A stretch of 64,000 nucleotides of DNA from Candidatus Mycolicibacterium alkanivorans (GTDB lineage: Bacteria > Actinomycetota > Actinomycetes > Mycobacteriales > Mycobacteriaceae), in NCBI RefSeq assembly GCF_022760805.1, contig NZ_JAIVFL010000001.1:1-64000 (forward strand), in the 5' to 3' direction. The notes under the pieces are model-generated. The model was not told the origin of the DNA. It searched no databases and worked only from the letters and a program-made list of their open reading frames with translations. Positions 2,371 through 25,500 of the stretch are shown in pieces; the stretch's first letter is position 1; each line of letters starts with the position of its first letter. The position numbers and the translations under genes were made by a program.

Positions 2371-2372
2371 TA

Positions 2373-2440
2373 AATTACCGACCGGACACAGGCCCTATGT
2401 CCAGGACTCCGGACATGGAGTCCGTGTCCGGTCGGTAATT
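2373..2440. repeat. Nested palindrome between head-to-head HTH transposase genes
   Basis: A perfect 17-bp inverted repeat (aattaccgaccggacac at 2373-2389, complement at 2424-2440) encloses a second inverted repeat (ggactcc at 2404-2410, ggagtcc at 2417-2423). The outer arms also continue, less perfectly, into the upstream regions of both HTH genes, so these are probably the facing terminal repeats of two head-to-head copies of one element. The left copy of the ISL3 target duplication overlaps this motif. Confidence 0.8.
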
Positions 2441-2540
2441 CTGTGTTGTGAGCTGTGGATTTGGCGGTGTGTCGGGGTCGATTCCCGACCTAGTCGCGAT
2501 ATAATACATGAAGTGTTTCCGGTGGATTTGGGGTGCGGCG

Positions 2541-2851: not shown

Positions 2852-2898
2852 GTGTCCAGCGAGAACTTTAATGAGCGGGTTTGCGGAGACATGCGTAA
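2852..2898. repeat. IS-end-like repeat, copy 1 (second copy at 19894-19940)
   Basis: About 47 bp starting gtgtcc(a/g)gcgagaacttta is shared, with a few mismatches, with 19894-19940. In both places one side abuts unrelated DNA, and a methyltransferase gene lies nearby. It looks like the terminal segment of an otherwise deleted IS. Confidence 0.7.
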
Positions 2899-3641
2899 AT
2901 GTTGACAGTGAAGTATTTCTCCAGTGGAGCCAGTCTACTGAGCGCCCTCATAACTCGCATCGCCGGGCGGCTACCCTTGTTTGTTTCGCAACTAATGACA
3001 TTCCATCCTTGCTCGGCAATTATCGAGCGGAATTGAGCTGGCGTCAGCTTGTTCAGCCCGACGTCACTGGCAGTCTGTATCCGCTCGTGCCGCCGACGAG
3101 AAGCGAGCTGGCAAAGTGCCGATTCGGGCAATATTGCTGGCAGCCAAGGGATCCTGCGAGAGCCTTTCCAGTACCGACCGTGATCACCAAACGGGCTGAA
3201 ATACAGCGGACTGAAGCCGGTTGCAAGCACGCCGTCGTCGTTGAGCCGCTTCGCGATACTGCGCATCATGCCTGGCAGGTCATCTATGTGTTCAAACGAA
3301 TCCTTGGACAGCGCAACGTCAAATGCTTCGGTGACTTCTTCAAGCCCACCGTTGTGAAAGGAAATAATCGATGAAAATTCTGGATAATTGACCTCCAAAT
3401 TTCTACACGCAAAGTCAACACGCATGCTGTCAATATCAATGCCCAGCACCCGTTTCGCACCCTGCTGTGCCGCGTACACCGAAAGAGCACCGTGGCCACA
3501 TCCGATGTCGAGGACACTCTTGCCTCGAAAGTCCAGGTGCCCCAGACGCCGCCAATACTCGAGGTTGCTGCTGTAGAGTTGTTGGTTGAAGTACTGAACT
3601 TCTTCCTCGGCCAAACTGCTGTCACCAATACCGTCCGTCAT
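2868..3641 (-). CDS. Class I SAM-dependent methyltransferase
   Basis: 257 residues with the Rossmann-fold SAM-binding motif I VLDIGCGHGALSVYAA (~41-56), the acidic motif II residue in GIDIDSMRV, and the post-I segment SKDSFEHIDDLPGMMRSIAKRLNDDGVL typical of Methyltransf_11-type O/N-methyltransferases. The last ~10 residues (YACLRKPAH) are encoded by the IS-end repeat at 2852-2898, so the native C-terminus may have been replaced. The local composition is less GC-rich than the surrounding IS genes. An inferred role is modification of a surface sugar or lipid; the substrate is not determinable. Confidence 0.85.
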   Translation of the reverse strand: MTDGIGDSSLAEEEVQYFNQQLYSSNLEYWRRLGHLDFRGKSVLDIGCGHGALSVYAAQQGAKRVLGIDIDSMRVDFACRNLEVNYPEFSSIISFHNGGLEEVTEAFDVALSKDSFEHIDDLPGMMRSIAKRLNDDGVLATGFSPLYFSPFGDHGRYWKGSRRIPWLPAILPESALCQLASRRRHERIQTASDVGLNKLTPAQFRSIIAEQGWNVISCETNKGSRPAMRVMRALSRLAPLEKYFTVNIYACLRKPAH

Positions 3642-3684
3642 ATCTTAGCCTGAACTCCGTTCTGAAGTTGCTTCCGTCAGCTAG

Positions 3685-3820
3685 CCCGGATTTTTCGTAG
3701 ATATTCGCTGGTCGGAGTGTGTTGATAGGCGAAAGTGTCTGTCCCGCAAGGCATGATGGGACTTGTCGAGAGTCCATGATGCGAGCTGGAAGGCACTTCG
3801 CACGTGAAGAATAGCGCAAC
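3685..3820 (+). mobile_element. IS1380-family left-end remnant
   Basis: This ~136-bp stretch matches the left terminus and transposase start region of the complete IS1380 element at 30529 (…gatttttcg…tgtgttgata…cgaaagtg…aaggcacttcgca…gtgaagaatagcgcaacg) with many substitutions. It is preceded by ctag, like the CTAR target sites of the intact copies, and ends abruptly at an IS3 fragment. Confidence 0.75.
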
Positions 3821-3821
3821 G

Positions 3822-4262
3822 TTGGGTCGGGTGAGTGTCGGTCGACGATGGTGGTGCGGACCTTCTTGCGCCGCCGCACCCCTTCCCACCCGTTGGCAGC
3901 CATCAGTCGCTCCACGGTGCAACGGGCCACCTCAATGCCCTGCCGTTGCAGATGAGCCCACATCTTGGTGGCCCCGTACAACGACTCTGGCTTGCGCCGG
4001 CCCTGCTCGTCGGGTTCGTAGAAGCTCGCCAGTATCTCCACGATCACCAAGTCCCACAACGCCCGGTTCGACGGTGGCCGGGACAGCCAGGCGTAGAACG
4101 TCCTCGGGGCGATCTGACATCCGTGCTCGGAGAGCACGCGGCAGATCGGAACGACCCCGAACCGAGCGCGATGCTCGGCGATGAACGCACAGATCAACGA
4201 TGTAGCGGGTCGCTCTCCCGCGCGAAGAAACTTGCTGCCGCCTTGAGGATTTCGATGGTTAT
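3822..4262 (-). pseudogene. IS3-family transposase fragment (end of OrfA, start of OrfB)
   Basis: Reading on the minus strand, the end of an IS3 OrfA is visible (EILKAAASFFARESDPLHR then stop). A shifted frame follows with the OrfB start FIAEHRARFGVVPICRVLSEHG, then YGATKMWAHLQRQGIEVARCTVERLM. The overlap of the two frames is the normal IS3 frameshift arrangement. The DDE catalytic half is missing because the fragment joins the IS1380 remnant near 3821. Confidence 0.8.
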
Positions 4263-4353
4263 CTACGGTTCCTTGGCGGCGTGTCCTTGATGTAGGCGAC
4301 ACACCCTTTGAGGCTCAGGGTGTTTCGTCGTGGACCGTTTATCTTTAGTGTCT

Positions 4354-5448
4354 ATGACATCATCGCCGGGTTACGTGGTCCAGCGGGTGGTGATGCCGTT
4401 CGGCGATCCGGAGTCGTGGACTGTGGTTGGTGCCGATGCATGCGCTGTGGAACCGGTTGAGGCGTTCTTGGCTCATCTGCATGCGGTGGAACGATCTGCC
4501 AATACCGTCCGCGCGTATGCCCATGACCTTCGGGACTGGTTCACGTTTTGCACTCGGTCAGGTCTGGGGTGGTCGAATGTACGCCTGGAGGATGTGGGCC
4601 GGTTCGTCGCTTGGCTGAGGCTGGGGCCAGAATCTAGGGATGCGCCCAATGTGGTGGCGTTTCCGAGCGCACCGCCTGCGGGGTGCTCAGAGGCGACGGT
4701 GAACCGGAAACTGTCGGCGGTGTCGGCGTTCTATGAATTCCATCAGCGCCACGGTGTAGATCTGGGTGATCTGCTGGTGACTTGGCAGCGACGCGGATCC
4801 GGCGGTAGGTCGTGGCGACCTTTGTTGGCGCACTTAGGTTCTCGACCGGAACGGACGCGCAGGATACGGTTGCGTGCCGATAAGCGGCTGCCGTCAACTC
4901 TGGATGAGCAGCAGGTCGCGGCGGTACTGGGATCGTGCGAGCGGTTGCGGGACCGGTTGTTGTTCACCCTTCTGGCCGAGACGGGACTACGTATTGGCGA
5001 GGCCCTGGGACTGCGCCATGAGGACATCGACGCCGCTGCGTGCGTTGTGTCGGTGGTGGGCCGGGTGAATACCAATGGGGCGCGCGCCAAGTCCGGATCG
5101 CGTCAGGTTCCGGTACCGGGCCGGCTGATCCGAATGTACTGCGATTACCTGCATGCCGAGTACGGCGACCTGGATAGCGATTACGTCTTCATCAATCTGT
5201 GGGCTGATCCGGTGGGGGCGCCGATGACTTATCGCAGCGTTTACGATTTGGTGCTGCGTCTTCGTGTCAGGACGGGAATCCTCTTCTCCCCACATGTGTT
5301 TCGCCACACTTACGCAACGAGCCTGCAAGTGCGCGGTATTGCATCTGATGCATCATTGGGCATGGATGGTGATTGGGAGTCGGTAAGGGATTTCGGTTTT
5401 GGAGCGGCCGCCGGCCCGGCCTGGCGGTATGGGCGACACGCTATCTGA
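4354..5448 (+). pseudogene. Tn554 TnpA-like tyrosine recombinase, C-terminally truncated
   Basis: An N-terminal SAM-like DNA-binding domain (VEPVEAFLAHLHAVERSANTVRAYAHDLRDWF) is followed by the catalytic domain with Arg box I (ETGLRIGEALGLRHEDID), the AKSGSRQVPVP segment and box II HVFRHTYATSL. The protein diverges directly after box II (…LQVRGIASDAS) and continues in frame through the left end of recombinase module A to a stop at 5448. The second catalytic His/Trp region and the nucleophilic Tyr are absent. ATG 4354 is the preferred start; an in-frame GTG exists at 4330. It is inactive as a stand-alone recombinase. Confidence 0.8.
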
Positions 5449-5539
5449 CCTGGGATGTGATCGCGGGGGTGGCATCTGATGGCACGATGAGGCATGTGTT
5501 TCGGTTGCGTTTGATGCCTGATTGTGGCGTCTGATGGCA
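5340..5539. promoter_or_regulatory. Repeated palindromic sites, candidate recombinase-binding/att region of module A
   Basis: Three related near-palindromes centred on TCTGA occur in 200 bp: tgcatctgatgca (5340-5352, perfect 6-bp arms), tggcatctgatggca (5470-5484) and tggcgtctgatggca (5525-5539). The first is also present at the equivalent end of module B (18129-18141). Their position at the module end just ahead of the recombinase gene suggests recombinase or HTH-protein binding sites (inference). Confidence 0.5.
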
Positions 5540-5540
5540 G

Positions 5541-6653
5541 GTGTGGTCGGGGGGTTTGGTGTCGGGTGCTCGGGTGGCTGGTTCGGCTGCGTTGACGGTG
5601 GTGACGGGTTGCACCCCGGTGCGTCCGGAGCCGGCGTTGTTCGACGCGATGCTGGACGGGTGGCGGTCGCAGCAGCTGGCCCGGCGGTTGGGCGAGTCGA
5701 TTATCGGTGCGCGGGAACGCACGGTCCGCCGGTTCGGCGAGTTCACCGGTGGCTGGCCGTGGTCCTGGACGGCGGGACAGTTGGAGTCGTGGATCGCGAC
5801 CGGCGGGTGGGCGCATTCCACGGTCCGCAGCTACCAGGGCGCGGTAGCGGTGTTCCTGGAGTATGTGTGCGACAGCAGGTACGGCTGGGTCGTCGAGTGT
5901 GAGCAGCGGGTCGGTGCGCGGCCGGCGCAGATCTGTCACGAGTGGAACACCGCCCGGCACGTGTGCGAATACGAGGGGCGTCCGGCCCGGCGGCCGTTGA
6001 CCCGGGCGGAGCTGCAGGCGTTCTTCGACGCTGCCGACGACCGGGCCGAACAGGCCATCACCTCGGGCCGCAAGGGATGGCTGGCCGCGTTCCGGGACGC
6101 CGCGCTGTTCAAGGTCTGCTATGCGTTCGGGTTACGGCGGCGGGAGGTCGCGATGCTGGATGTGACCGACTTCACGGCGAACCCGGCTGCCCCCGAGTTG
6201 GGTGGGCTGGGCGTGTGCCAGGTGCGGTTCGGCAAGGCGATGCGCGGCTCCCCGCCGCGACGCCGGTCGGTCGCCGCGGTGATGCCGTGGGCACTCGAGG
6301 CGTTGGAGCAGTACCTGACCCTGGTGCGGCCGCGGTACGCCGCGGCGGCGCATCCGGCGCTGTGGTTGACCGAACGGGGCGGCCGGATCTCGCCGCGGCA
6401 GGTCGATGACCGGTTCGCCCGGTGGCGGGCGGCGGCCGGCCTGCCGGCCGAGTTGTCGGTCCACTGCCTGCGTCATTCCTATGTCTCCCACCTGATCGAG
6501 GACGGGGTCGACCCGTTGTTCGTGCAGCAGCAGGTCGGGCATTCCTGGGCGTCCACGACGGCGGTGTACACGCAGGTCGGCGCGGACGCCAAGAACCGGA
6601 TGTTGCGGGCCGCGTTGGATGCCGCGTTCGGTGCGGAATCATCACCGGGGTGA
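5541..6653 (+). CDS. Module A tyrosine recombinase/integrase
   Basis: Up to 370 residues from a GTG at 5541; a later GTG near 5559 is an equally plausible start. The catalytic set looks complete: Arg in FGLRRREVAMLD (~199-201), H-x-x-R in HCLRHSYVSHL (~308-311), and the GHSWASTTAVY block with His ~334 and nucleophilic Tyr ~343. The N-terminal half (RTVRRFGEF…STVRSYQGAVAVFLEYV) is the core-binding domain. The stop overlaps the start of the XRE gene (GTGA), indicating translational coupling. It is strongly similar, but clearly not identical, to the module B recombinase at 16817-17953. Probably the active integrase of the module. Confidence 0.9.
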   Translation: MWSGGLVSGARVAGSAALTVVTGCTPVRPEPALFDAMLDGWRSQQLARRLGESIIGARERTVRRFGEFTGGWPWSWTAGQLESWIATGGWAHSTVRSYQGAVAVFLEYVCDSRYGWVVECEQRVGARPAQICHEWNTARHVCEYEGRPARRPLTRAELQAFFDAADDRAEQAITSGRKGWLAAFRDAALFKVCYAFGLRRREVAMLDVTDFTANPAAPELGGLGVCQVRFGKAMRGSPPRRRSVAAVMPWALEALEQYLTLVRPRYAAAAHPALWLTERGGRISPRQVDDRFARWRAAAGLPAELSVHCLRHSYVSHLIEDGVDPLFVQQQVGHSWASTTAVYTQVGADAKNRMLRAALDAAFGAESSPG

Positions 6654-6976
6654 GCGTTCAGGTGGGGTATCACTGGCATCTGCGAGCCCGGATGGCGGCG
6701 GCCGGGATGTTCGCGACCACGGACCTGGTGCCGCTGCTGGCCGAACGGGGGGTCGTGCTGTCCCGGGAGCAGGTCTACCGGCTGGTGGCCCGGGTCCCGG
6801 AACGTTTGTCGCTGACCACGTTGGCGGCGTTGTGCGACATCCTGTCTTGCACCCCGGCCGATCTCATCGAGCCCTACCGGCCCACCCGTTCCCGCCCGAC
6901 CCGACGTGACCAGGCCGGGCCGGCCGCGCCGCAACGCCCGACCCGGGCCCGGGTGCTGCCCGACACCGGACGCTGA
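6650..6976 (+). CDS. Module A XRE-type helix-turn-helix protein
   Basis: 108 residues from GTG 6650, overlapping the recombinase stop by four bases. The HTH is FATTDLVPLLAERGVVLSREQVYRLV, followed by LTTLAALCDILSCTPADLIEP, the Cro/C1 (HTH_26) pattern. The basic, Pro-rich C-terminal tail (TRSRPTRRDQAG…) has no recognised fold. In this setting it could be the module's transcriptional repressor or a recombination directionality factor; the sequence does not say which. The module B homologue is at 15736-16086. Confidence 0.85.
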   Translation: MSVQVGYHWHLRARMAAAGMFATTDLVPLLAERGVVLSREQVYRLVARVPERLSLTTLAALCDILSCTPADLIEPYRPTRSRPTRRDQAGPAAPQRPTRARVLPDTGR

Positions 6977-6982
6977 AAGCCC

Positions 6983-9082
6983 ATGCCGGCCAACGAGACT
7001 GGATGCCCGGCCTGCGCCAACGGGCGGTTGTGCACCGGTTGCGGGCGCACGCGGATCATCACCGCGGTCGCGGCGAGGACACCGGATATCCCGATGGGCG
7101 TGCTGACCGCTGCGCTGGACGCGGTGGCCGGCCACGCGGCAGTCATCCGGTCATTGGCCGCCGCCCTGGCCGCCGATCCCGATGCGCTCACGGTCGGCGC
7201 ACCGCCGGTGGTGGGCCGCCTCGTCGGGGAACTGCAGGCCCGCGGGGTGGACCTGCCGGACCCGGTCTGCAGCCGGTGCGGTCGCACCGGCAAGCCGCTG
7301 ACCCGTTCGCCGGCCGGGGGTGTGTGCGCCCGCTGCCGACGCCGGCAACTCGCGACCGCGTGCCTGCGGTGCGGCGTGGTCAAACCCGTCGCCGGCCGAG
7401 ACGGGCAGGGCCAGCCGGTCTGCGCGCGGTGCGCCGACCGGCCGCAGCGGGTCTGCGGCAAGTGCGGACGGACCCGACGGATCGCCCGCCGCGCCCGCGA
7501 CGGCCAACCCGACATCTGCGATTCCTGCTTCCGAGGGCCCGAGGCCGTCTGCAGCCGCTGCGGGCGGCGGCGGCCCTGTTCGTTCGCCTCCGGCCCGAGC
7601 CCGGTCTGCGCCCGATGCGCGCCCCGGGCGACCGCGACGTGCGCACACTGCGGCGCCGACCGCCCACCGACCGCCCGGTGGCCCGAGGGACCGGTCTGCG
7701 ACCCCTGCTACATCGCGGCACTGCGCCGCCGCGGCACCTGCGCGACCTGCCGGACCGGGCGGCGGCTCGTCCACCCGCCCGGCCCGAACGCCACCATCTG
7801 CGCCGACTGCGCCGGTGTCCCGGTCAGCCACACCTGCACCGACTGCGGGATCGAGGACAGAGCCTACGAACGCGGCAGGTGCGCATCGTGCGCACTCAAC
7901 CGCAGAACCGCGGCCGCGTTGTCCGGCCCCGACGGGCAGAACCGGCCCGACCTGGAACCGGTCTACCAGGCGATCACTGCCACCGACGCTCCACGCACCG
8001 CGCTGAACTGGCTGCGCAACAGTGCCGGCGCGGCCCTGCTGACCCAGATGGCGTCCGGCGCTGTGGATCTGACCCACCAGGCACTCGACGAGTACCCACG
8101 CCCGGGTGTCGCCGGATACCTGCGGGCCGTGCTGGTCGCCAACAACGTCCTGCCGCAACGCGACGAACAACTCACCGCCACCGAACAATTCCTCACCCGC
8201 ACCCTGGCCGGCGTCACCCGCGACAGCGACCGCCGCCTCGTCCACTCCTACGCCACCTGGCAGGTCCTACGCCGCCTGCGGGTGACCGCGGCACAAGGCG
8301 ACCGGCCACGCACCTACACCCATCACGCCCGCACCAACATCAACGCCGCAATCGACCTGCTGAACTGGCTCGCCGACCACGAAACCACCCTGGCCGACAC
8401 CGGCCAAGCCGACATCGACACCTACCTGGCCGGACAACCGCCGTCCCGCTACCGCGTCCGCGACTTCCTCCAATGGGCCGCCGCAACCGGTCACACCGGC
8501 CCGGTCACCATCGCCACCCCGGGCCGCAACGCCGGCCCGGCCACCGACCACGACCAACGGTGGGCCCAGATCGCCCGGCTCCTGCACGACGACACCATCG
8601 AACTCACCGACAGGGTCGCCGGAGCACTACTGCTGCTCTACGGCCAGCACCTGACCCGGATCGTGGCGATCACCCACGACCAGATCAAAACTCAAGGCCC
8701 GCAAGTCTTTCTCCGACTCGGAACCGACGACCTGCACATCCCCGAACCGCTCGCCGAGCTCATCACAGCCCTCGCCCGCGACGGCCGCCCCTACACCGGA
8801 GTCGGCACCCCAAGCACCACCCGCTGGCTGTTCCCCGGACTGCAACCCGGCAGACCCCTCACCGCCGCCCGACTCGGCGACCGCCTCCGCAAACTCGGGA
8901 TCCGAGCCCAACCCGGCCGCCGCGCCGCGCTCACCCACCTCGCCGCCCAACTACCCGCCGCCGTCATCGCCGACCTACTCGGCATCCACCCCACCACCGC
9001 CGTCCACTGGGTCCACGACGCCGGCGGCGACTGGAACCGCTACGCCGCCCAACTCACCCACGACGCCAGTCACCAACCATGA
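6983..9082 (+). CDS. Multi-zinc-ribbon protein with degenerate tyrosine-recombinase C-terminus
   Basis: 699 residues. The N-terminal ~320 contain 16 CxxC motifs (CPAC, CTGC, CSRC, CARC, CLRC and so on), enough for eight zinc ribbons. The C-terminal ~370 resemble a recombinase core-binding plus catalytic fold (NAAIDLLNWLADHETTLADTGQADIDTYL…RVAGALLLLYGQHLTRIVAITHDQI). At the box II position it reads GRRAALTHLAAQLPAAVIADLLGIHPTTAVHWVH, so the HxxR motif is lost and Trp stands where the catalytic Tyr is expected. It is probably a non-catalytic DNA-binding partner of the upstream recombinase (inference). ATG 6983 lies 6 bp after the XRE stop. The module B homologue lacks ~145 N-terminal residues and is broken. 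Confidence 0.85.
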   Translation: MPANETGCPACANGRLCTGCGRTRIITAVAARTPDIPMGVLTAALDAVAGHAAVIRSLAAALAADPDALTVGAPPVVGRLVGELQARGVDLPDPVCSRCGRTGKPLTRSPAGGVCARCRRRQLATACLRCGVVKPVAGRDGQGQPVCARCADRPQRVCGKCGRTRRIARRARDGQPDICDSCFRGPEAVCSRCGRRRPCSFASGPSPVCARCAPRATATCAHCGADRPPTARWPEGPVCDPCYIAALRRRGTCATCRTGRRLVHPPGPNATICADCAGVPVSHTCTDCGIEDRAYERGRCASCALNRRTAAALSGPDGQNRPDLEPVYQAITATDAPRTALNWLRNSAGAALLTQMASGAVDLTHQALDEYPRPGVAGYLRAVLVANNVLPQRDEQLTATEQFLTRTLAGVTRDSDRRLVHSYATWQVLRRLRVTAAQGDRPRTYTHHARTNINAAIDLLNWLADHETTLADTGQADIDTYLAGQPPSRYRVRDFLQWAAATGHTGPVTIATPGRNAGPATDHDQRWAQIARLLHDDTIELTDRVAGALLLLYGQHLTRIVAITHDQIKTQGPQVFLRLGTDDLHIPEPLAELITALARDGRPYTGVGTPSTTRWLFPGLQPGRPLTAARLGDRLRKLGIRAQPGRRAALTHLAAQLPAAVIADLLGIHPTTAVHWVHDAGGDWNRYAAQLTHDASHQP

Positions 9083-9085
9083 CGA

Positions 9086-9637
9086 ATGCCTCGCGTGAGC
9101 GGCAGCCCGCGGCTGGGCATTCGCAGGGTTCGAACATTGCTGGTTACCAGTTTCAACAACGACGTTTCCCAGGAAGTCGTGCGGCGACTGCTCGACCACA
9201 CCAGCCACACTATGACCGCCCGATACGCCCGCCTGGCTGACACCACCATCCGTGCCCAGTGGGAACGCGCCCGCAAGATCGACATCCACGGCCATCCCGT
9301 CGACACCAGCGCCGACACGCTGATCGGCGACGCAGAGTGGATGAACCATAACCTCGCCCGCGCGAAAATGGCGCTGCCCAACGGCTATTGCGGACTGCCA
9401 CTGCAGAAGTCGTGCCCGCACGCCAACGCCTGTCTGACGTGCCCTGTATTCATTACCACTCCCGATTTCTTGCCCCAACACCACACTCAGCGCACCCAGA
9501 CCCTGCAGTTGATCACCGCCGCCGAAGCCCGCGGCCAACAACGCCTGGCTGAATCCAACCGCACCGTGCTGGCCAATCTCGACACCATCATCACCACACT
9601 CGAAGCCGACCCGGAGGACGCAGAACATGCGCGCTGA
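9086..9637 (+). CDS. Stand-alone C-terminal catalytic piece of a Tn554 TnpB-like recombinase
   Basis: 183 residues. After ~20 unrelated residues it enters TSFNNDVSQEVVRRLLDHTSHTMTARYARLADTTIRAQWERARKI, the final part of a TnpB-type tyrosine recombinase with the last His and the nucleophilic Tyr. A Cys-containing tail typical of TnpB (LQKSCPHANACLTCPVFIT) follows. The Arg-I and HxxR boxes are missing. Its start lies 3 bp after the zinc-ribbon gene stop and its end overlaps the DUF6262 gene by 11 bp. Module B has the same arrangement, so this may be a retained split recombinase subunit rather than debris. Confidence 0.75.
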   Translation: MPRVSGSPRLGIRRVRTLLVTSFNNDVSQEVVRRLLDHTSHTMTARYARLADTTIRAQWERARKIDIHGHPVDTSADTLIGDAEWMNHNLARAKMALPNGYCGLPLQKSCPHANACLTCPVFITTPDFLPQHHTQRTQTLQLITAAEARGQQRLAESNRTVLANLDTIITTLEADPEDAEHAR

Positions 9638-10046
9638 CAACAGCTCTCACCTTGCTGCCGCGGCCAAACAGCGCCACGAACAGACCCGCGCCAAAGCGAT
9701 CGCCGCCCTACACGACCTCGACCAGGCCGGAGCCGCGATCAGCTTCCAAGCCGTAGCCGACCGCGCCGATGTTTCACGCTCCTGGCTCTACACCCAAACC
9801 GACCTCAAAGACGAAATCCGCAGGATCCGTGCTCGGCGCCAACCCACGCCCGGCCGCCTCACGCGCTCACCCCAACCCGCCAGCGACGCATCACTGCGGC
9901 AACGACTTACCCTCGCTCACCAACGGATCCGCGAACTCGATGAGGATAACCATCGACTCCGCAGTCAAATAGCCCATCTCCACGGCCAAATCCGCACCAG
10001 CCGCACCACTCCGTCGAAGACACTGTCCACGACACAAACACCGTAG
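9627..10046 (+). CDS. DUF6262 / Tn554 TnpC-like protein
   Basis: 139 residues with an N-terminal HTH-like segment (AISFQAVADRADVSRSWLYTQTDLKDEIRRIR) and a C-terminal coiled coil (RLTLAHQRIRELDEDNHRLRSQIAHLHGQI). This is the architecture of the third gene of Tn554-type transposons, which influences the orientation and frequency of transposition. The ATG overlaps the 3' end of the TnpB piece. Confidence 0.8.
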   Translation: MRADNSSHLAAAAKQRHEQTRAKAIAALHDLDQAGAAISFQAVADRADVSRSWLYTQTDLKDEIRRIRARRQPTPGRLTRSPQPASDASLRQRLTLAHQRIRELDEDNHRLRSQIAHLHGQIRTSRTTPSKTLSTTQTP

Positions 10047-10084
10047 TCACACCGCAATCCGCTGGCACCGGCTGAAGATAAAGC

Positions 10085-10334
10085 GCGTTTCCTCAAGCTC
10101 ACGGTTCTTGCGTTTGAGTTCACGCAATTCTCGCGCGGTATCGGTAGGGATCCCATCACGCTGGCCGGCGTCCACCCGAGCCTGGGCCACCCAGCGGCGC
10201 AGCGTCTCGGTGGACACGCTCAACCGCTTGGCCACCGCGGTGATGCAGGCCCATTCCGAGGTGTACTCATCGACATGGTCAATAACCAGTCGGACCGCCT
10301 TGACCTTGAACTTCTCGTCGTACTTCTTCGCCAT
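10085..10334 (-). pseudogene. IS3-family OrfA fragment
   Basis: Starting at ATG 10334 (MAKKYDEKFKVKAVRLVIDH) it shows the IS3 OrfA HTH (ACITAVAKRLSVSTETLRRWVAQARVDAG) and the leucine-zipper start (ELRELKRKNRELEE). It breaks near 10085 and continues in unrelated sequence to a stop at 10047. It could be the missing 5' part of the IS3 element seen at 3822-4262 or of another copy. Confidence 0.8.
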
Positions 10335-11955: not shown

Positions 11956-13330
11956 CAGGGCTCCGGCGTTGTTGATTAGCATGCCTGTGAGCTGGGGATA
12001 TGTGGATTCGTGAAGAGTTGCAGGGCGTTGTTGCTGCTGAATGCCGTTGTGCGGCAGGCTTCGGCAATGTTGGTGGCTCCGGCGAGGCGGTGCAGATTCA
12101 TGGCGGTGTTACGTAGAGCGGCCATGGTTTGGGGCGCGGTGCCGGTGCGCACGGTCGAGCGGTCCTCGTCGTAACTGACATCACGTACCCAGTGCACCGA
12201 ATTCTCGATGCCCCAGTGCCGGCGCAGCCAGGAGGCGATCAGCTTGGGTGGGGCCTGTTCGAACGCAACACTGCAGATGGCATAGACAGTCTCGATCGAG
12301 CGAACACCGGTGGCAGTCACGACCCGTTCACGGGTGACCTCGGCGATCTGCTTGGCGTAGGGAAACCCGATTCCGCGGGATGCGGTCAGTGTCTTGAGTG
12401 TTCGTGTTTCAATGCGGCCGTGACCGCGTTCGGACGGCTCGGCGAAGGTAACTGGCACCTGCGCCCACGGCATGGCCTTGATGCGGGCCAGCAGGCTGGG
12501 CTGATTCGACTTCACCGTCATCAGGTAGTGGGATTTCAGGGTGCTGCAGATCAGCTTGGCGGTCTTGGTCTGGGTATGCATTGCGTCGATGGTCACCAGG
12601 AGCCGGACGTGCCCAAACAGTCTGAGTAGCGCACGGACGCAGGGTATTTCGTTGCTCTTGTCCGCGACGGCGAGCTGCCCGAGCACCAGCCGGGCGTGAT
12701 GGGCGAACACCGACACCACATGGACCGCCGCCGCTCCGGCGCGGCGTGCTCCTCGCAACGTCTTGCCATCCAGCGCCACCACCAACAGCGCGTCGCCGGC
12801 GGCGGACTGCGCGACAGCCAGCGCGGTGAAGTATGCACCGAGGCGGCGGTCCAGGTCGGCGGCATCCAGACGCGACAGTACGGTCCGAAACGTCTTCTCG
12901 CTCGGGCGTCGATACCGAATACCCAACTGCGCGAGAACATCCTGCGGTGCACTCGCTGCCCACGTGGCGAACCCCGCGTAGGAGCGCATGCCGGCCGCCG
13001 TAGCCAGGATCGCCACCGCCAACAGCGCCATCAATGAGTACCTCACGCCACGTGCATCACGTGGATCAGGAACCTGCGCCAGCACGTCCAACAGCTCGGT
13101 GCGCAGCACACGGACGCGTTCGCCGGATTGCCAGCGAGCCAACGCCTCGGTGATCGAGTCCACGGGTGATACTGACAGGGCAGGCACGGGCAACTCCGAG
13201 TGATCGATGAGGTCTGAGCAACTCCATCGTCCTCGGACCGCCCGTGCCTGCCCACCAGCCTCGACGGCGTGTCACCGAATAACCATCAGCCCAGGTCACG
13301 GACCCGTAAATCAACAACGCCGGAGCCCTG
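11956..13330 (-). mobile_element. ISAs1-family insertion sequence, complete copy (1375 bp)
   Basis: Inverted repeats cagggctccggcgttgttga bound the element at 11956 and, complemented, at 13330. A 10-bp direct repeat ggtggcgagg lies on both sides (11946-11955 and 13331-13340), so the insertion is clean. The target is the module B DUF6262 gene. Confidence 0.95.
11976..13193 (-). CDS. ISAs1-family transposase
   Basis: 405 residues. The N-terminal DDE_Tnp_1-associated region reads VPDPRDARGVRYSLMALLAVAILATAAGMRSYAGFATWA. The catalytic segments are VVALDGKTLRGARRAG (first Asp), LLVTIDAMHTQTKTA (second Asp) and LRRHWGIENSVHWVRDVSYDEDRS (Glu), the hallmark motifs of ISAs1/IS4-superfamily enzymes. 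No disruption seen; a 3' fragment of a second copy lies at 37909-38512. Confidence 0.95.
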   Translation of the reverse strand: MPVPALSVSPVDSITEALARWQSGERVRVLRTELLDVLAQVPDPRDARGVRYSLMALLAVAILATAAGMRSYAGFATWAASAPQDVLAQLGIRYRRPSEKTFRTVLSRLDAADLDRRLGAYFTALAVAQSAAGDALLVVALDGKTLRGARRAGAAAVHVVSVFAHHARLVLGQLAVADKSNEIPCVRALLRLFGHVRLLVTIDAMHTQTKTAKLICSTLKSHYLMTVKSNQPSLLARIKAMPWAQVPVTFAEPSERGHGRIETRTLKTLTASRGIGFPYAKQIAEVTRERVVTATGVRSIETVYAICSVAFEQAPPKLIASWLRRHWGIENSVHWVRDVSYDEDRSTVRTGTAPQTMAALRNTAMNLHRLAGATNIAEACRTTAFSSNNALQLFTNPHIPSSQAC

Positions 13331-13527
13331 GGTGGCGAGGCCGGTCAAGGTCCGGGCGTCTGTTTGCCGGGTCCGGTGTTCGTCGACGATGGCACGTCGT
13401 TGCTGGTCGCGGTAGAGCGTTGCACGACCGATCTGGGCCTGTTCGGCGACGGCGGTGAAGGTGATCGGATAGCCCTTGGTGACGAACTCGGCGCAGACCC
13501 GCTCGACCCTGGCCAGGGTGCTTTCGT

Positions 13528-14055
13528 TCATGCGGTCTCCGTCTGGGCGATGAGCGCATCGAGTCTGGAGACGAGTTTGCGATGCCGTTCTGCTTCGTCA
13601 ATCCAGCCGCGTTGTTCTGCGTCCGCGGCCAGATCCTGTGCATCGATGCGTTGGGCTGCAAGGACTCCCAGGTGGGTGGAGTCGGTGTGAAAACTGGGGC
13701 AGTTCTCGCAGATGTTGGCATAGGGGCATGAACCTTGCGCAGGTGCGCGCAGGCAGTAGCCACCGGCGAGCCGTGATTTGACCGCCGGCGCGTCCTTCCA
13801 TCGGGCGCCGGTGACATCGGTGATCGGCAGCTGGGGCCCGGTGGTGGGCAACGGTCCGATGTGGCTTTTCGCCAGGTCCGGGGCGCGTTCGTATTCGGTG
13901 CGCACGGTGTGGTCGAAGAGGTGGGCGTAGCGCAGGCTCATCTGGGTGGAGACGTGTCCGAGCAGGGCCATCAACGCCTGCAGCGACACTCCGGCGTTGA
14001 AACTGGTGAACGGCGTTGATCGTCTATGTCGAATACCGGTGAGGGAGCGTCTCAT
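13528..14055 (-). CDS. Module B TnpB C-terminal catalytic piece
   Basis: 175 residues starting MRRSLTGIRHRRSTPF, then TSFNAGVSLQALMALLGHVSTQMSLRYAHLFDHTVRTEYERA with the final His and Tyr of a tyrosine recombinase, and the Cys-rich TnpB tail (APAQGSCPYANICENCPSF). As in module A, its ATG overlaps the stop of the zinc-ribbon gene (ATGA at 14052-14055) and its own end overlaps the DUF6262 start. Similarity to the module A counterpart is low outside the motifs. Confidence 0.75.
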   Translation of the reverse strand: MRRSLTGIRHRRSTPFTSFNAGVSLQALMALLGHVSTQMSLRYAHLFDHTVRTEYERAPDLAKSHIGPLPTTGPQLPITDVTGARWKDAPAVKSRLAGGYCLRAPAQGSCPYANICENCPSFHTDSTHLGVLAAQRIDAQDLAADAEQRGWIDEAERHRKLVSRLDALIAQTETA

Positions 14056-15739
14056 CGCACCTTCTCGAAGGAGTTGGGCGCGGTCTGGGCGCGCGTTCGG
14101 GCGATCTCGGCGGAATAGTGGGACCAGTCGCCCCCGGCTGCGTGTGCCCAGTCGGCGGCGGTGGTGGTGTGGATGCCGAGCAGGTCGGCCAGCACTGCCG
14201 CGGGGACGGTGCTGGCGAGTTACAACATTGCGGCGCGCCGGCCAGTTTGGCAGTCAATTCCAAGTTGGGCGAGGCGTTGACCCAGTCGTGCCGGGGTGAT
14301 CGGTCGACTAGGGAGGTGTCCGGGGAACAGCCAGTTGCTGTCGGGGGGCGCGGCGATGCTGGTGTGTCGGCGGGGTGCATCGAGGTGGGCGCGCACGAAT
14401 CCGGCTAGAGGCTCGGCGACTTCGACGTCGCCGGTTCCGAATCGGATCGATAGGTTGTCGCCGCGGTCGTGCACCTGGCTGCGTGTCATTGCCGCGATAC
14501 GGGATAGCTGTTGGCCGTAGAGCAGCACGAAGCTGCCGGCGACCCGATCGACGGTGACGATGTCGGGGTCATGCAGCAGCCGCTGGGCGAGCCTCCAATA
14601 GTCCTGCTCGCTGAGGGCAGGTCCTTCGCGGTGGGCGGCATCCGCCAGGGTCAATGGTGGGGCGAGCTTGCGGGCAGCAGTCCAGCCGAGGAAGTCGGCG
14701 ATTTCACGGCGCAGCGTAGGTGGGCCGGTCAGCAGCCACTGGTCGATGTCGGCTTGTCGGAGCTGGCTGAGCTGGACGGCGTTGTCGCGCAACCACTCCA
14801 GCAGCGCGATCGCAGCCCGCAGGCGCAGGGCCGCATGTCCGGTGGCCGCGGTCGAGGTGGGTCGGGTACGGGCGCGTCGACGGGCACGGTGCAGGATCCG
14901 CCAAGTGGCATAGGCGGTCAGCGTGCGCCGGTCCTCTCCGACGGGGACCCGCTCGAGCAGGTCCGCAACTTTCCGCTCGAGCCTGGCCAGCGGTTCGTCG
15001 CGCGGTGGTGTGGTAGGACGTCGTGAGCAACGAGTACGGCGCGCAGATAGTCGGCGGCTCGTCGGGTCGGGTGCGCATCGAGGGCTTCGTGGGTCAGCGC
15101 GACGTCGCCGCGCGCGAGCGCGGCTAGGATCGCAGCCCCCGCTCCCTTACGCAGCCAGTTCAGCGCGGTCCGTGGGGCGCTGGTCGCCACGATGGCGTCG
15201 CGCACCGCGGCGAGCGTGCTGGGCACGATGCCGCTGGAGTCGGCGAGCAGCTCGTCGGTGCGCCGCTCCAGCGTGCATCGGGCGCAGTAGCCGCGGATGT
15301 AGAGCTTGTCTTCCACACCGCAGCCGGTGCAGACGTGCCCGGCGGGTCCGGCGCCCGAACACGCGGCGCAGGTATTTGCGCCCGGCCCGGGCGGGGCGAC
15401 CAGACGCCGGTGGCGCCCGCAGAGGGTGCACGTGCCGGCCCGACGCAGCGCGGCGGTGTAGCACGGGTCGCAGATCGGGCCCTCGGGCCAGCGCGCGGCT
15501 GCGGGCCGAGTACCGCCGCAGTGGGCGCACTGGCTGGTCCGGCGTGGCCGGCAGCGACTACATATCGGCCGCCCGGCTGCGACTCCGCTGCAAGGGCGTT
15601 CGTCGCCGCAGACCGAGCAGGCCGCGGTCGGCGGCCGCCAGCAGGTCGAGCAGATGTCGGGCCCATCTGGGCCGGCGCGCCGGGAGATTGGTCGCACCCG
15701 CCCGCACCGGCCACAGAGCCGGGCGGCGCCCGCGTTCAC
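14052..15739 (-). pseudogene. Module B zinc-ribbon/pseudo-recombinase, frameshifted with a premature stop
   Basis: The GTG start at 15739 overlaps the XRE stop (GTGA). It has ten CxxC motifs against sixteen in module A and lacks the first ~145 residues of that homologue. The frame is lost at ~15010 (after VAHDVLPH) and resumes in another frame as RDEPLARLERKVADLLERV. A TAA near 14225 interrupts GRRAAML/LASTVPAAVLADLLGIH. The remaining C-terminus reads through to TGA 14052. As in module A, the HxxR and catalytic Tyr are not conserved. Confidence 0.8.
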
Positions 15740-16086
15740 CGCGGGTCCTCAGGGTCAGAGATGATGCGGGCGCGTTTGGGTCGCAACTCACGCGGAACCG
15801 ACTGTGCCGTAGTCGTTTTCGCTCCGGCAGCGCGTTTGGCACCAGACTTGGATTCGACCACCGGCTCGATCAGATCCGACGGCGTGCACTCGAGGATGTC
15901 ACACAACGCGGCCAACGTGTGCAGCGACAACCGTTCCGGCGTGCCCGCCGCCAGCCGGTAGACCTGCTCGCGCGAGATCACGACGCCCCGTTCAGCCAGC
16001 AGCGGGCCCAACTCCGTAGTGGCGAACATGCCCCGCTCGGCCATCCGCAGCCGTAGATGCCAGCGATAGCCCACGACCCTGCTCAT
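15736..16086 (-). CDS. Module B XRE-type helix-turn-helix protein
   Basis: 116 residues, MSRVVGYRWHLRLRMAERGMFATTELGPLLAERGVVISREQVYRLAAGTPERLSLHTLAALCDILECTPSDLIEP, then a basic tail. It is closely related to the module A protein. Its start region is duplicated on the far side of the HEPN gene (see repeat at 16072). Confidence 0.85.
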   Translation of the reverse strand: MSRVVGYRWHLRLRMAERGMFATTELGPLLAERGVVISREQVYRLAAGTPERLSLHTLAALCDILECTPSDLIEPVVESKSGAKRAAGAKTTTAQSVPRELRPKRARIISDPEDPR

Positions 16087-16835
16087 CGCGAGTCCCTCTG
16101 CGGTACAGAATCTTTCACCATGGATTCGCCCCAGTGCTGGTGGTAATCACCTCAGCAACTCGCGTCTCGGTGCGGGTAGTGAGCCGCTTGACGTGGTTGT
16201 AGTATTCGTTGACCTTCAGCTTCGTCACGCTGGTAGCTGCTGATCCCCGATGAGCTATTTCGCCTCGGAGTGTCACGAACGCGTCGAGCTTCTTTGCGGC
16301 AGCGTCAGCCCTCATGCCCGGCCAGTACCAAGCCTTCGCGACGTTCTCAACGCCGACCGCGCTCTTGAAGAGATCGTTGATCTGGGCGGTCTTCGGTGTG
16401 TTCAGCTTTCTGTTCCGCTCCGCCTGCAGCTTTGCGAGTCGGGACGACAAGACTGTGCGCCAGCCGTTTTCAGCCAGTCGCCATACGGCCAACTCATGCG
16501 GGTCGGTCTTGAGTTCTTGAGCAACCAGTTTCCGAAGCTCCGATGGCAGACCGTTTGCCGTTGTCGAATGCTTGACGAGATGGTCGAGCGCCTCCGCAGC
16601 GAGATCTTCGCAAAAGGCCTCCCAGAACGCCGTGAGCAGCACGAAAGCGGACTTGTGGAGCGCCTCGACCTGCCACTTCCGACCGCGACCTTCAGGGGTG
16701 ATATCGCCGTGGATCTCAAGGAGACGGTCGATGTCCCCGCAGTTCTCTATGAACGCCGTTTGGGCCTGGCTGGTCATCTCACCGTCCCTCTACTCTCGCC
16801 TGTATCACGACCCGGCTCATGGCAAGTTCCCTTGC
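16072..16835. repeat. Imperfect 30-bp direct repeat flanking the HEPN cargo gene
   Basis: 16072-16101 (spanning the XRE start codon) and 16806-16835 (spanning the recombinase stop) agree at 24 of 30 positions. The second copy preserves an ATGA in which the recombinase TGA overlaps a vestigial XRE ATG (16817-16820). The 734-bp spacing contains exactly the cargo gene, as expected if cargo was inserted at the original overlapping junction. Confidence 0.7.
16115..16777 (-). CDS. HEPN-domain protein (RiboL-PSP-HEPN-like), cargo of module B
   Basis: 220 residues, all-helical in appearance. An N-terminal segment (VEALHKSAFVLLTAFWEAFCEDLAAEALDHLV) is followed by a C-terminal LRGEIAHRG containing the R-x4-H signature (R171, H176) of catalytically active HEPN ribonucleases. 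Such proteins occur as toxins and in anti-phage systems. No obvious antitoxin gene sits beside it; the adjacent XRE protein might take that role, but its module A homologue exists without any HEPN partner. It has no counterpart in module A, where the recombinase and XRE genes overlap directly. Confidence 0.75.
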   Translation of the reverse strand: MTSQAQTAFIENCGDIDRLLEIHGDITPEGRGRKWQVEALHKSAFVLLTAFWEAFCEDLAAEALDHLVKHSTTANGLPSELRKLVAQELKTDPHELAVWRLAENGWRTVLSSRLAKLQAERNRKLNTPKTAQINDLFKSAVGVENVAKAWYWPGMRADAAAKKLDAFVTLRGEIAHRGSAATSVTKLKVNEYYNHVKRLTTRTETRVAEVITTSTGANPW

Positions 16836-17953
16836 GGTGCAGCAACAAAGGCCCGGTCCACGGCCGCGCGCAGCATCCGATTGGCGTGATCGGCGCCGAC
16901 CGTGGTGTAGCCGGCCGTCGTCGACGCCCACGAATGCCCCGCCTGGCGCTGCACAAATGTCGGGTCGACACCGTCCTCTATGAGGTGGGAAATGTAAGAG
17001 TGACGCAGGCAGTGTGGGGTGAGATTCTCCGGCAGATCAGCGCCGGCCCGATAGACGGCGAACCGGTCGTCGACCTGACGCACCGAGATCCGCTCGCCCC
17101 TTTCGGTGAGAAACAGCCCCGGATGGTCAGCCGCGGGATAGCAGGACCGGACCTCGGTCACGTACTCTTCGACCACCTCGGCCGCCCACGGCATCACGGT
17201 CGCCACTTGGCGCCGCCGCGGTGGCGACCCGCGCATCGCCTTGCCGTAGCGCACTGCCAACGTGCCGAATCGGCCCAACTCCGGAACCGCCGGATTCGTC
17301 GTGAAGTCGGCGACATCGAGCATCGCCGCCTCCCGCCGGCGTAGCCCCCAGGCGTAAGTCACTTTGAAAAGTGTCGCGTCGCGAAACGCCGCCAGCCAGC
17401 CCTTGCGACCGGTCGCGCGGACCTCGCCCACCCGGGCATCGGCATAATCGAACAACGCCTGCAACTCCGCGCGAGTGAACGGCCGCCGTCCCGGCCTACC
17501 TTCGTAGTCGGCGACGTGCACCGCGGTGTTCCACTCGTGACAGATCTGCACCGGATGCGTCCCGAACCGCGCCTCACATTCGGCCACCCAGCCATAGCGG
17601 GCGTCGACCACGTAATCCAGGAAGCACGCCACCGCACCCTGATAGGAGCGGATCGTGGTGTGCACGTGGCCGTTACGCGATAGCAGGCTACTGGTCCAGT
17701 CCTCGACATCACTCGCCGTCCAGGTCCACGGGACCCCGTCGGTGAACTCGGCGAATCGGCGCATGATCCGCTCTCGCCACAGCACCGTTGCGTCCGCGAG
17801 CAGCCTGCTGCGCTGCTGCGCCCGCCACCCGGCCAGCATCGCATCGAACACTGTCCGCTCGGGGTGCAAAACGCCGGTCCCTGCACCAGCACTAGCCGTG
17901 CCGAACCAGCCAGATGGCCATGCTGTTGGGCTTGTTCCGACATCCCCACGCAC
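16817..17953 (-). CDS. Module B tyrosine recombinase/integrase
   Basis: 378 residues with an intact catalytic set: YAWGLRRREAAMLDVADF (Arg I), HCLRHSYISHLIEDGVDP (HxxR) and VQRQAGHSWASTTAGYT (His and nucleophilic Tyr). The core-binding region (RRFAEFTDGVPWTWTASDVEDW…TTIRSYQGAVACFLDYVVDARYGW) aligns throughout with the module A enzyme. Start ATG 17953; the precise N-terminus is uncertain because the first ~30 residues differ between modules. Confidence 0.9.
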   Translation of the reverse strand: MRGDVGTSPTAWPSGWFGTASAGAGTGVLHPERTVFDAMLAGWRAQQRSRLLADATVLWRERIMRRFAEFTDGVPWTWTASDVEDWTSSLLSRNGHVHTTIRSYQGAVACFLDYVVDARYGWVAECEARFGTHPVQICHEWNTAVHVADYEGRPGRRPFTRAELQALFDYADARVGEVRATGRKGWLAAFRDATLFKVTYAWGLRRREAAMLDVADFTTNPAVPELGRFGTLAVRYGKAMRGSPPRRRQVATVMPWAAEVVEEYVTEVRSCYPAADHPGLFLTERGERISVRQVDDRFAVYRAGADLPENLTPHCLRHSYISHLIEDGVDPTFVQRQAGHSWASTTAGYTTVGADHANRMLRAAVDRAFVAAPQGNLP

Positions 17954-18128
17954 CCTTCCTCAGTCGCGAACGGATGCCTCAGTGTTGCACCAAATGCATC
18001 CTGGCAGCGGGATGTCGAGCATCAACGCAGCTCAGGAGGCGTGTCGAGTGACAGCCCGACCGACATCTGCGTCGCCAGCGAATACCCAGATCGACGCTGT
18101 CACAACGTTCTGCCGGGCTGCTGAATGA

Positions 18129-18141
18129 TGCATCTGATGCA
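18129..18141. promoter_or_regulatory. Palindromic site at module B left end
   Basis: tgcatctgatgca has perfect 6-bp arms around one base and is shared with 5340-5352 of module A. Read on the minus strand it lies within a conserved coding segment HTYATALKMRGIASDAS. Upstream of HTYAT the recombinase reading frame is lost. Confidence 0.55.
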
Positions 18142-18358
18142 ATTCCGCGCATTTTCAGGGCGGTGGCGTAGGTGTGACTTGTCTCCGCAGTGACCGTATG
18201 CGGTCGGGTTCATGTTGCGATTGAACTCGGCAGATTCTGATGCCTGGTTCGCAATGCGATTCGCCGAGTGTGTAGCGATAAGGACGGCTCGCCTGTGACG
18301 GATGTCACTGTGGTGAGTTCGGGTCATAAGGCGACATAGGACTCCGGTCGGCAAGTCG

Positions 18359-22510: not shown

Positions 22511-25500
22511 GTGGCGTACGTGCGGAAGGTGCGCACCGCCTCGGGAGCAGTCGCGGTGCAGGTGGTGGCGAAATTGCGGGGCCGCCGCGAGATCGTGGCC
22601 CATGTCGGATCGGCCCACACCGATGCTGAGCTGGGAATTCTGTTGGAGAAGGCCCGAGTGATAGCCCTCGGCGATCAGGGCCAGCTCGAGTTCGAGGTGC
22701 CCGCGCGCACCGAGTCGGTCCAGGAGGTGGCCAATGGGAGCGCCGCGACGCTGTTCGGGCCGCCGGCCAAGCCCAAGGGACTGCCGGTCGGGCCGGGGCG
22801 GACGGCGGCGACCAGTTCGCGGCTGCTCTATGAGGCGATCGGCAAAACCTACGACGGGTTGGGCTTTGATGCCGTCGCCGATGAGGTGTTCCGGGACTTG
22901 GTGATCGCCCGGGTCGTTGAGCCGACCAGCAAGCTCGATTCTCTTCGGGTCTTGACCGATCTGGGCGCAAACACTGTGTCCTACAGGACTATTCAACGGC
23001 ACCTGCGTTCTGTCGTCACGGGCAAATACCGGGATGTGATCAGCAAGAAATGTTTCGCGCACTCACGTGAGCGGGGCACGTTGAGTCTGCTGCTCTACGA
23101 CGTGACCGTGCGCCGTGAGGCGCTTGTTGTTCGAATGGAGGTGAAAGACCTGCATCGAAAGCTCCTGCCGTAGCGGGGGTTTGGAAGCTGGGGGCAGCCT
23201 GGCCGGGGAGACGCCCGGTATGGGTGGGAGCAGCCCTGACAAAGCCGTGTTGCGTCAGCACCGCTGGATGGCGTGAGCGCGGCGAGCAATGCCGAAGAGG
23301 TATACGTGAGGAACCGGTGTCATCACCTGTCTTGACGTATAACCGCCTCCAACCTGGCGGATATGGGGCGGGCGCGGACGGTTGGCTGTCGGAGTGACGG
23401 GCAGTCAGACCGCTCGGGGAACGAGTTACTTTCCTCGGGTGGGGCCGGCGGTGAAGGACTACGGAGTAGCTGCTGGCGGGTGCCGCAGGCAGATAGCCGG
23501 GTGCCTCCTTCGGTGAGCGAACAGCAAGTGAACACGGGAAGGTCTCCGGCTTTGCCCGCATGAAATGCGCAGCCAGCGTGTGGATGTCGGGCTGGGTTCG
23601 TCGTCGACTGATCGGGTCGGGGGCTGGCGGAGCCGCCGTAGTACTGCGAGTCCGGGAGAGCCGGACACATCGGGAAGGGCGGCAGCGACAATGGATAGGA
23701 GGTACTGCGATGGCGCAAGATGCGTCGGTGAACTCCGGCGCCGGGCCTCGGGCAGACACTGCACCGGACCGGGTAGCGCGGACGCAGATCAAGTATCACC
23801 GGTGGGCCAAGACCGACCGCACCGCGCGGTTCGGGGACTTGTTCAACCTGGTGTCACACCCGGACTACCTATGGATGGCATGGACGGTGGTGGCACGCAA
23901 CAAGGGGGCTCGCACCGCTGGGATCGATGGTGTGACTGTGCATCAGATCGAACAGCGTGGCGAGGTCCTGGCGTTCTTGTCTGAGATCGCTGCGACTATC
24001 GAAGACGGCTCGTATCGGCCCGCGCCGGTGCGGCGGGTGTTCATTCCCAAGCCGGGTGGCAAGTCTCGCCCGTTGGGGATCCCGACCGTGACCGACCGGG
24101 TGGTGCAACAGTCGTTGAAGATGGTGCTGGAACCGATCTTCGAGGCCGACTTCTTGCCGGTCTCTTACGGTTTCCGGCCCAAGCGGCGGGCTCATGACGC
24201 GGTCGCCGAGATCCATTACTACGCTTCGCGCGGGTACCGGTGGGTGTTGGACGCCGACATCGAAGGATGTTTCGACCACATCGACCACCGGGTGTTGCTC
24301 GCGCGGGTGCGGGCACGGATCGCGGACAAGAAGATCGTGGCATTGGTACGTGCGTTCCTTAAAGCCGGTGTGCTCGATGAGCTTGGCCGTCAGGACAGTA
24401 CCGATGCAGGAACGCCTCAGGGTGGGATCATCTCGCCGCTGCTGGCCAATATCGCGTTGTCCGCCCTGGACGAGGTGGTCATGGCCCCGTGGCAGCCCGG
24501 GGGCGATCAGGCCACGCAGTGGGCTCGTCGCAAACGGGTGCGCCACGGATTGGGCAACTGGCGGATCGTGCGCTACGCCGACGATTTCGTCATCATGACC
24601 AACGGCAGCAGAGATGACGTGCTCGCCTTGAAAGAGCAGGTCGCCGAGGTGCTCGGCGGGTTGGGCCTCAGGCTTTCTGAGGCCAAGACCCGTATCACGC
24701 ACCTTGAGCAGGGGATCGACTTCCTCGGCTTTCATCTCCAATGGAAGCAACGTCGGGGAGGCGGCAAGTGGTACTGCATGACCTTCATCGCCGACAAGGC
24801 GTTCCGGTCGATCAAGCAGACCATCCGCCAACTGATCCCACGCCGGTCTCCCCGGCCTCTCACAGCAGTAATTATCGAGGTCAATGCGGCACTACGTGGT
24901 TGGACGTACTACTTCCGCCACGCGCTGGCCGGGCGACGGTTCTCCTTCCTGCGGTATTTCACCTGGCGAAGGATCGTTGCCTGGCAGCGCGAACAGCGTC
25001 GCTGGAACTGGTCGAAGGTCAAGCGCTGGCTCCGCCGTCCCGACGGTAGTTGGAGGCCCATCGCCACCCCAGACGCGGTCCTGTTCGATCCCACGACAGT
25101 GCGGGTCGAGCGTTACTGGTACCGCGGGACGAAGATCCCCAGTCCCTACGACCCGATCATGGCTGCCTGACCGGCATCATCGTCGTGGAGAGCCCGTTGC
25201 GCTGAAAGGCGCACGGCGGGTTCGGCGGGAGGCCCGGGGAAACGGAGCAGCAGCAATGCCGCCACCGCGCCCCGGGCCCACCCAACACCCTGTACTTCGA
25301 AGCGGAGAACGAAGACGACCTGCGCAAGGTCGGCTACTCCAAGGAACGCCGCGTTGATCCGCAGATCGTGGTCGGTCTGCTGGTCGACCGCACCGGGTTT
25401 CCGTTGGAGATCAGCTGCTTTGAGGGCAACACCGCTGAAACCACCACGATCGTGCCGATCCTGCAAGGGTTCCAGAACCGCCACGACCTGGCCGGGGTGC

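Follow-up and report, generated by a model that had tools for sequence, protein, structure and literature searches.

A predicted HEPN ribonuclease gene in the recombinase/XRE overlap of an actinobacterial site-specific element, probably placed there by a single capture

Introduction

In a table of Anantharaman 2013 (PMC3710099), HEPN genes of the MAE_28990 type share their operons with genes for a ParB nuclease and a DNA methylase, and the GInt islands (PMC5385486) are characterized by the operon ginABCD, which encodes three integrases and GinD. Our literature searches returned no paper on RiboL-PSP HEPN proteins and none devoted to the gamma-mobile-trio or to Gifsy-1 HepS. Here, we analyzed a stretch of 64,000 nucleotides (nt) from Candidatus Mycolicibacterium alkanivorans (contig NZ_JAIVFL010000001.1, positions 1 to 64,000; hereafter the window), in which a predicted HEPN ribonuclease (RNase) gene lies between the tyrosine recombinase gene (REC) and the XRE gene of a small element, module B; a related element of the same window, module A, served for comparison. 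Our analyses make it reasonably likely that the HEPN gene was captured once into the recombinase/XRE overlap of an actinobacterial element and that the resulting composite is mobile, is under selection, and carries a probable abortive-infection RNase. The locus thus offers a case in which a defense-type gene has become part of a mobile element's core operon, and not of its cargo region, and in which the footprint of the insertion can still be read; a second copy in another genome permits tests of selection.

Results

On the minus strand, module B comprises REC, the HEPN gene, the XRE gene, and a long gene encoding a zinc ribbon and integrase-like protein (Table 1). The conserved core of REC is in frame, its conserved N-terminal ~25 residues are in a different frame, as judged by alignment and frame reading, and the long third gene carries a frame change and an internal stop; because the REC N terminus is out of frame with the core and the third gene is broken, module B is considered to be partly decayed. 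The HEPN and XRE genes are open over their whole length. In module A, no gene separates the recombinase from XRE, and XRE starts with the GTG at 6650, whose overlap with the recombinase stop reads GTGA, as the original prediction had stated.

The HEPN gene (663 nt, 220 residues) takes up nearly all of the 697 nt that separate the two junction copies. Its product passed the gathering threshold of the Pfam RiboL-PSP-HEPN family (PF18735; 73.1 bits, cut-off 28.4) and scored 32.3 bits against the MAE_28990/MAE_18760-like HEPN family (cut-off 26.8). The R-x4-6-H signature of the HEPN superfamily is present as R171-x4-H176 and is invariant in all 41 aligned sequences, the window's included, so that Pfam and the alignment agree with the earlier claim of a HEPN gene with an intact R-x4-H motif at the module B junction. 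The structure model had a mean predicted local distance difference test score of 84.9; a Foldseek search gave no match at E <= 0.001, solved structures searched by sequence gave chance-level matches only, and PADLOC and PHROGs gave no match to the HEPN protein. The guanine-plus-cytosine content of the HEPN gene is 0.59-0.60, against 0.65-0.67 in REC and XRE, in the window and in the second copy described below.

Table 1. Features of module B and comparison features of module A, in window coordinates
Feature	Coordinates	Strand	Evidence
Tyrosine recombinase of module B (REC)	16817..17953	-	Pfam PF00589, E 1.6e-19; alignment with P0121 and others
Left junction copy (REC stop/XRE start), holding the REC stop and ATGA	16806..16842	-	37-nt direct repeat, 30/37
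Possible 13-codon mini-ORF (MSRVVIQARVEGR, then stop)	16779..16820	-	Direct sequence reading
HEPN ribonuclease gene (predicted), R171-x4-H176	16115..16777	-	Pfam PF18735, alignment, structure model
Right junction copy: XRE start and relic of recombinase C-terminal codons	16072..16108	-	Direct repeat
XRE/HTH_26 gene, core module gene	15736..16086	-	Pfam PF13443, E 1.2e-15; found in HEPN-less modules
Long third gene, zinc ribbon-like and integrase-like part, broken	14220..15739	-	tblastn with module A protein; frames
Left end of module B element, palindrome-like TTGCATCAGATGCATCATT	18124..18176	-	Homology to module A and L216 starts there
Tn554-like long recombinase C-terminal fragment and TnpC-like open reading frame	13286..14055	-	Labeled by position and likeness to module A
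Module A recombinase, HEPN-less comparison copy	5541..6653	+	67% identical to REC
Module A XRE, overlapping the recombinase stop as GTGA	6650..6976	+	GTG start at 6650

A search of 396 genomes of the genus identified four that carry the HEPN gene at E <= 1e-20, among them that of the window. One of these, L216 (genome G1033, another Mycobacterium), has 2614 nt that match window positions 15565-18176 at 86.5% DNA identity, with 95% protein identity for REC, 90% for HEPN, and 91% for XRE; in the remaining two, L041 and L043, the HEPN gene occurs in other contexts. The recombinase of L216 has its N terminus in frame, and the long gene is interrupted there. The flanks of L216 differ from those in the window, the adjoining C-terminal recombinase fragment being 66% identical to that of module A and 38% to that of module B. 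The same composite in different flanks in two genomes indicates that it moved, or was transferred, as a unit.

The insertion footprint consists of two direct copies of the recombinase/XRE junction, one on either side of the HEPN gene. The original prediction had reported a repeat of 24/30; it proved longer, with 30 of 37 nt identical and a start-to-start spacing of 734 nt, and the ATGA that had been noted at 16817-16820 is present. The score of this repeat was reached by none of 5000 dinucleotide shuffles and by none of 19742 random window segments. Although noncoding now, the right copy still reads PQRDSR and a stop in the recombinase frame in the window, and PQGNSR and a stop in L216, and close recombinase relatives end in PQGNSG (P0121) and PQGSSR (P0123). 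Because the right copy can still be read as a recombinase C terminus like the ends of these relatives, the repeat is taken as a true duplication. The two copies in L216 agree at 18 of 21 positions, a pair that is weak by itself because 48 of 2000 shuffles reach its score. The left copy of the window and the right copy of L216 agree at 28 of 32 positions, and this agreement together with the shared C-terminal reading indicates that both junction copies descend from one junction. More plausibly than a slot, the repeat reflects the need to add a gene to an overlapping pair without damage; it requires no dedicated slot, since both genes can stay intact only if the insertion duplicates their overlap. 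Such a duplication may arise when the repair of a staggered break takes up HEPN DNA. At 33 further HEPN loci, flanking repeats were never comparable with those in the window (highest z 2.5, as against 7.0 in the window), so that such repeats are rejected as a general signature of HEPN cassettes.

Selection was estimated by the Nei-Gojobori method from one pairwise comparison, that of the window with L216, as the ratio of nonsynonymous to synonymous substitution rates (dN/dS). This ratio was 0.119 for HEPN (bootstrap 95% interval 0.07-0.18; dS 0.53), 0.144 for XRE (0.05-0.29; dS 0.38), and 0.057 for the REC core (0.03-0.09; dS 0.44). The similar dS of the three genes supports a single capture before the split, and the low dN/dS between the two copies indicates that HEPN is under purifying selection and thus probably functional. 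These values bear on the view that HEPN is a neutral passenger decaying with its element, to which the partial decay of module B and the interruption of the long gene in L216 as well would lend some weight; given the low HEPN ratio, with its interval, and a reading frame that is open in both copies, we consider a passenger improbable. Taken together, the comparison of the two sequences makes it most likely that HEPN was captured once and travels with the element, two independent captures, which would require the same site and the same gene, being a less likely alternative.

The recombinase-XRE pair is present in many actinobacterial genomes and plasmids. Recombinase relatives were found in 94 of 401 genomes of the family (E <= 1e-60), 97 of 297 genomes of the genus (DNA search), and 31 of 394 genomes of the class (E <= 1e-90), the nearest metagenomic recombinases being P0121 to P0125 (P0121 to P0123 at 88-94%). 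The survey of junctions comprised the loci returned and 80 fetched regions, with 27 of 135 family places left out, mostly partial or repeated copies; from the genus and class lists, the returned loci and a few fetched regions were read, not all listed places. Copies were merged only if their last 300 aligned nt were identical, close relatives being counted separately. Nine recombinases with a truncated C terminus were left out of the count (in six of these XRE was not found), and at L104 (= L076), which has a close XRE relative, the 5' part of XRE and the recombinase are lost and the junction is unreadable. XRE was scored as adjacent when no more than 150 nt separate its start from the last aligned residue of the recombinase, and the same residue served as the reference point where the recombinase frame reads through its stop. 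On this definition, XRE is directly adjacent in 125 of the 127 nonidentical recombinase loci, the window's included, that have an intact C terminus, and 57 of the 125 show the exact 4-nt overlap position. The two nonadjacent junctions are those of the window and L216, both REC-HEPN-XRE. No other surveyed recombinase locus contains a HEPN relative at E < 1e-4, and no second kind of cargo gene was seen at the surveyed junctions. XRE is likewise adjacent in 37 of 40 plasmid records, these being the records common to the best 60 of 180 and the best 60 of 204 matching records, and in the other three the best XRE match lies at a different place in the record. In viral contigs, the recombinase search gave one clear locus (L217), where the sequence runs out at the recombinase stop, and a second, weak locus; neither is part of the junction counts.

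This survey weighs on the interpretation put forward in the original prediction, that the recombinase/XRE junction is a cargo slot, i.e. a recurrent, site-specific insertion place for toxin or defense genes. An extra intact gene with direct repeats on both ends is what first speaks for such a slot. However, 125 of the 127 junctions are empty, the two filled ones represent a single lineage with the same gene, and XRE adjoins the recombinase in 37 of the 40 plasmid records. Moreover, the junction repeat appears by eye unlike the presumed element end, the imperfect palindrome TTGCATCNGATGCATCATT, a recombination site inferred from three left ends only, and the other HEPN loci show nothing comparable. 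The comparison of homologous junctions for variable cargo that had been proposed has thus yielded the window and L216 only, both with HEPN; a general cargo slot is not supported, and this is the least credible of the explanations considered. What stands of the earlier interpretation is an added gene whose entry left both neighbors intact, of a family often found near defense genes, and its recurrence in a second genome.

The same counts bear on the relation of HEPN to XRE. XRE-type proteins act as antitoxins elsewhere, and the two genes are adjacent here, as would be the case for a toxin-antitoxin pair with XRE as the antitoxin. However, XRE stands beside the recombinase in the 125 HEPN-less modules, and a search of 33 HEPN loci, part of them with short flanks, detected no relative of the module B XRE at E <= 1e-4. 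As XRE is present in modules that lack HEPN, it is no dedicated antitoxin, and the pair is rejected as barely credible.

Among 982 candidates, 247 HEPN relatives were found at E <= 1e-3, for example in M. kansasii (P0001, 91%) and Nocardia wallacei (P0004, 80%). Matches to HEPN occur in four plasmid records (37-41% identity) and at two loci in viral contigs (42-47%), phage records gave no match, and HEPN was not found in a genus of the same family represented by 28 genomes. The recombinase/XRE arrangement is absent from all 33 HEPN loci of named genomes, several of them with short flanks; at six, the flanks contain weak, partial matches to a recombinase (25-43% identity), and at L049 such a match lies ~130 nt beyond HEPN on the opposite strand. 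A scan of one to five neighbors at 12 HEPN loci revealed defense-type genes at six of these. At L041 (Mycolicibacter kumamotonensis, 1766-10258), a 78%-identical HEPN gene lies between pglW and pglX of a bacteriophage exclusion (BREX) operon, its ATG overlapping the pglW stop as ATGA, an overlap like that of the REC stop and the mini-ORF start in the window. The neighbors are a BsuBI/PstI-type endonuclease at L042, a CAP12/Pycsar TIR protein at L043, a HEPN/Toprim N-terminal protein (Pfam only) at L046, a DNA methylase, Vsr, and MzaE at L051, and HsdR, HsdM, and a GmrSD-like protein at L056. Of the other scanned loci, L054 and L061 have relaxase or ArdC genes and L045 an Imm50 protein, and L048, L065, and L070 have nothing informative beside HEPN. 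These neighborhoods also bear on the proposal that HEPN works for the element itself, for instance by cleaving element mRNA to limit the transposase or by biasing transposition. Its place within the operon, between recombinase and regulator, and its retention in two lineages would fit; yet the other examined modules do without HEPN, and its relatives occur in defense and plasmid-like contexts without this arrangement, so that a service of this kind appears very improbable. The best reading of the HEPN gene is that of a solitary defense-type RNase embedded in the operon of a site-specific element.

The homology of module A, module B, and L216 starts at the same place (window 5305-5360, window 18124-18176, and around 11353 in L216), beside the imperfect palindrome and at the codons just past the H-T of an R-H-T-like motif in a recombinase frame upstream, where module B has S-H-T. 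On the right side, all three show a recombinase C-terminal fragment beginning TSFN, followed by a TnpC-like gene; in module B, both are probably relics of a transposon that the element had entered. The gene interrupted in L216 is a recombinase frame of 637 residues, with a short recombinase gene ahead of it. Of the 73 loci whose upstream sequence is long enough, 11 (module A, module B, and L216 included) have some recombinase upstream, and the R-H-T-like motif occurs in these three alone. Judged from these three copies, the element appears to insert site-specifically into Tn554-like recombinase genes, in their catalytic region. The long third protein (699 residues, window 6983-9082; 848 residues, L212:6394-8940) had no NCBIfam or PHROG match and, in Pfam, weak helix-turn-helix (HTH) matches only. 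The Rhodococcus plasmid pYLC1 (L212:2994-6394) carries two recombinase-HTH gene pairs head to head. Elsewhere in the window, two repeated open reading frames of equal length (536 residues) with the same N terminus lie at 23560-25170 and 35128-36738, one of several repeated pairs in that part, and they resemble group II intron reverse transcriptases.

Discussion

Module B would be a copy of an actinobacterial site-specific element encoding a recombinase, XRE, and the long zinc ribbon integrase-like protein, and a solitary RiboL-PSP-type HEPN RNase gene would have been captured in its recombinase/XRE overlap, most likely once. The direct junction repeat that the capture left behind (37 nt here) allowed the recombinase to retain its stop and XRE to retain its ribosome-binding region and start. 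HEPN would thereby have become the second gene of the operon, presumably cotranscribed with REC and probably translated by coupling to the recombinase, and the composite would then have moved or been transferred as one unit while HEPN stayed under purifying selection. The most likely function of the protein would be that of a metal-independent RNase that is silent until phage infection or another stress and active upon it, and an anti-phage role as an abortive-infection effector would benefit both element and host. If active, HEPN would represent a small solitary defense gene with no toxin-antitoxin partner in sight, and the locus illustrates how a gene can enter an overlapping pair without harm, namely when the overlap is duplicated.

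The spacer between REC and HEPN may add a further layer. In the window, the start of the mini-ORF overlaps the REC stop, and a single nucleotide separates its own stop from the HEPN ATG; L216 has an equivalent of 12 codons with the same placement of start and end, although the spacer has diverged. With two sequences, this is suggestive but weak evidence for the mini-ORF as a candidate translational relay from REC to HEPN. A stronger proposal, that HEPN is an integral, selected part of the element in which the duplicated junction has turned into a relay (REC stop, a leader of 12-13 codons, HEPN start) and which acts as an abortive-infection or addiction effector tied to recombinase expression, remains tentative, and we regard it as rather unlikely.

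Single capture into the overlap, the explanation that we prefer, sets the locus apart from the described systems to different degrees. The gamma-mobile-trio (PMC12715929) resembles the module in its small recombinase operon with a small putative DNA-binding protein and in its fitness or defense cargo. Membership was ruled out, as REC scored far below the cut-offs of the GmtY/GmtZ models (22.2 bits against 340 and 17.9 against 600), and the long protein did not match these models. The GInt islands (PMC5385486) share the same traits by description but differ in that GInt cargo begins at the ginD stop and not between recombinase genes. Tn554-related actinobacterial transposons (PMC3414803) have a short and a long tyrosine recombinase gene as a pair in Actinobacteria, and it is the surroundings in the window, i.e. 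the C-terminal fragment and the TnpC (DUF6262) parts, that resemble this type, whereas the module has XRE and no TnpC of its own. The assignment of the element as a Famint36/41 Tn554-like transposon is not supported, the module A recombinase being absent at E <= 1e-30 from all three Famint36/41 plasmids tested in a search run without a positive control. The HEPN protein itself is close to the RiboL-PSP-HEPN and MAE_28990-MAE_18760 family (Anantharaman 2013, PMC3710099), with both Pfam cut-offs exceeded, the R-x4-H motif, and defense-type neighbors in common, and differs in that the window copy lies inside a transposition operon. HEPN effectors have also been described in BREX operons (PMC12839542), an arrangement to which L041 corresponds, its HEPN gene being likewise a guest between operon genes, whereas the window copy has a recombinase module as its host operon.
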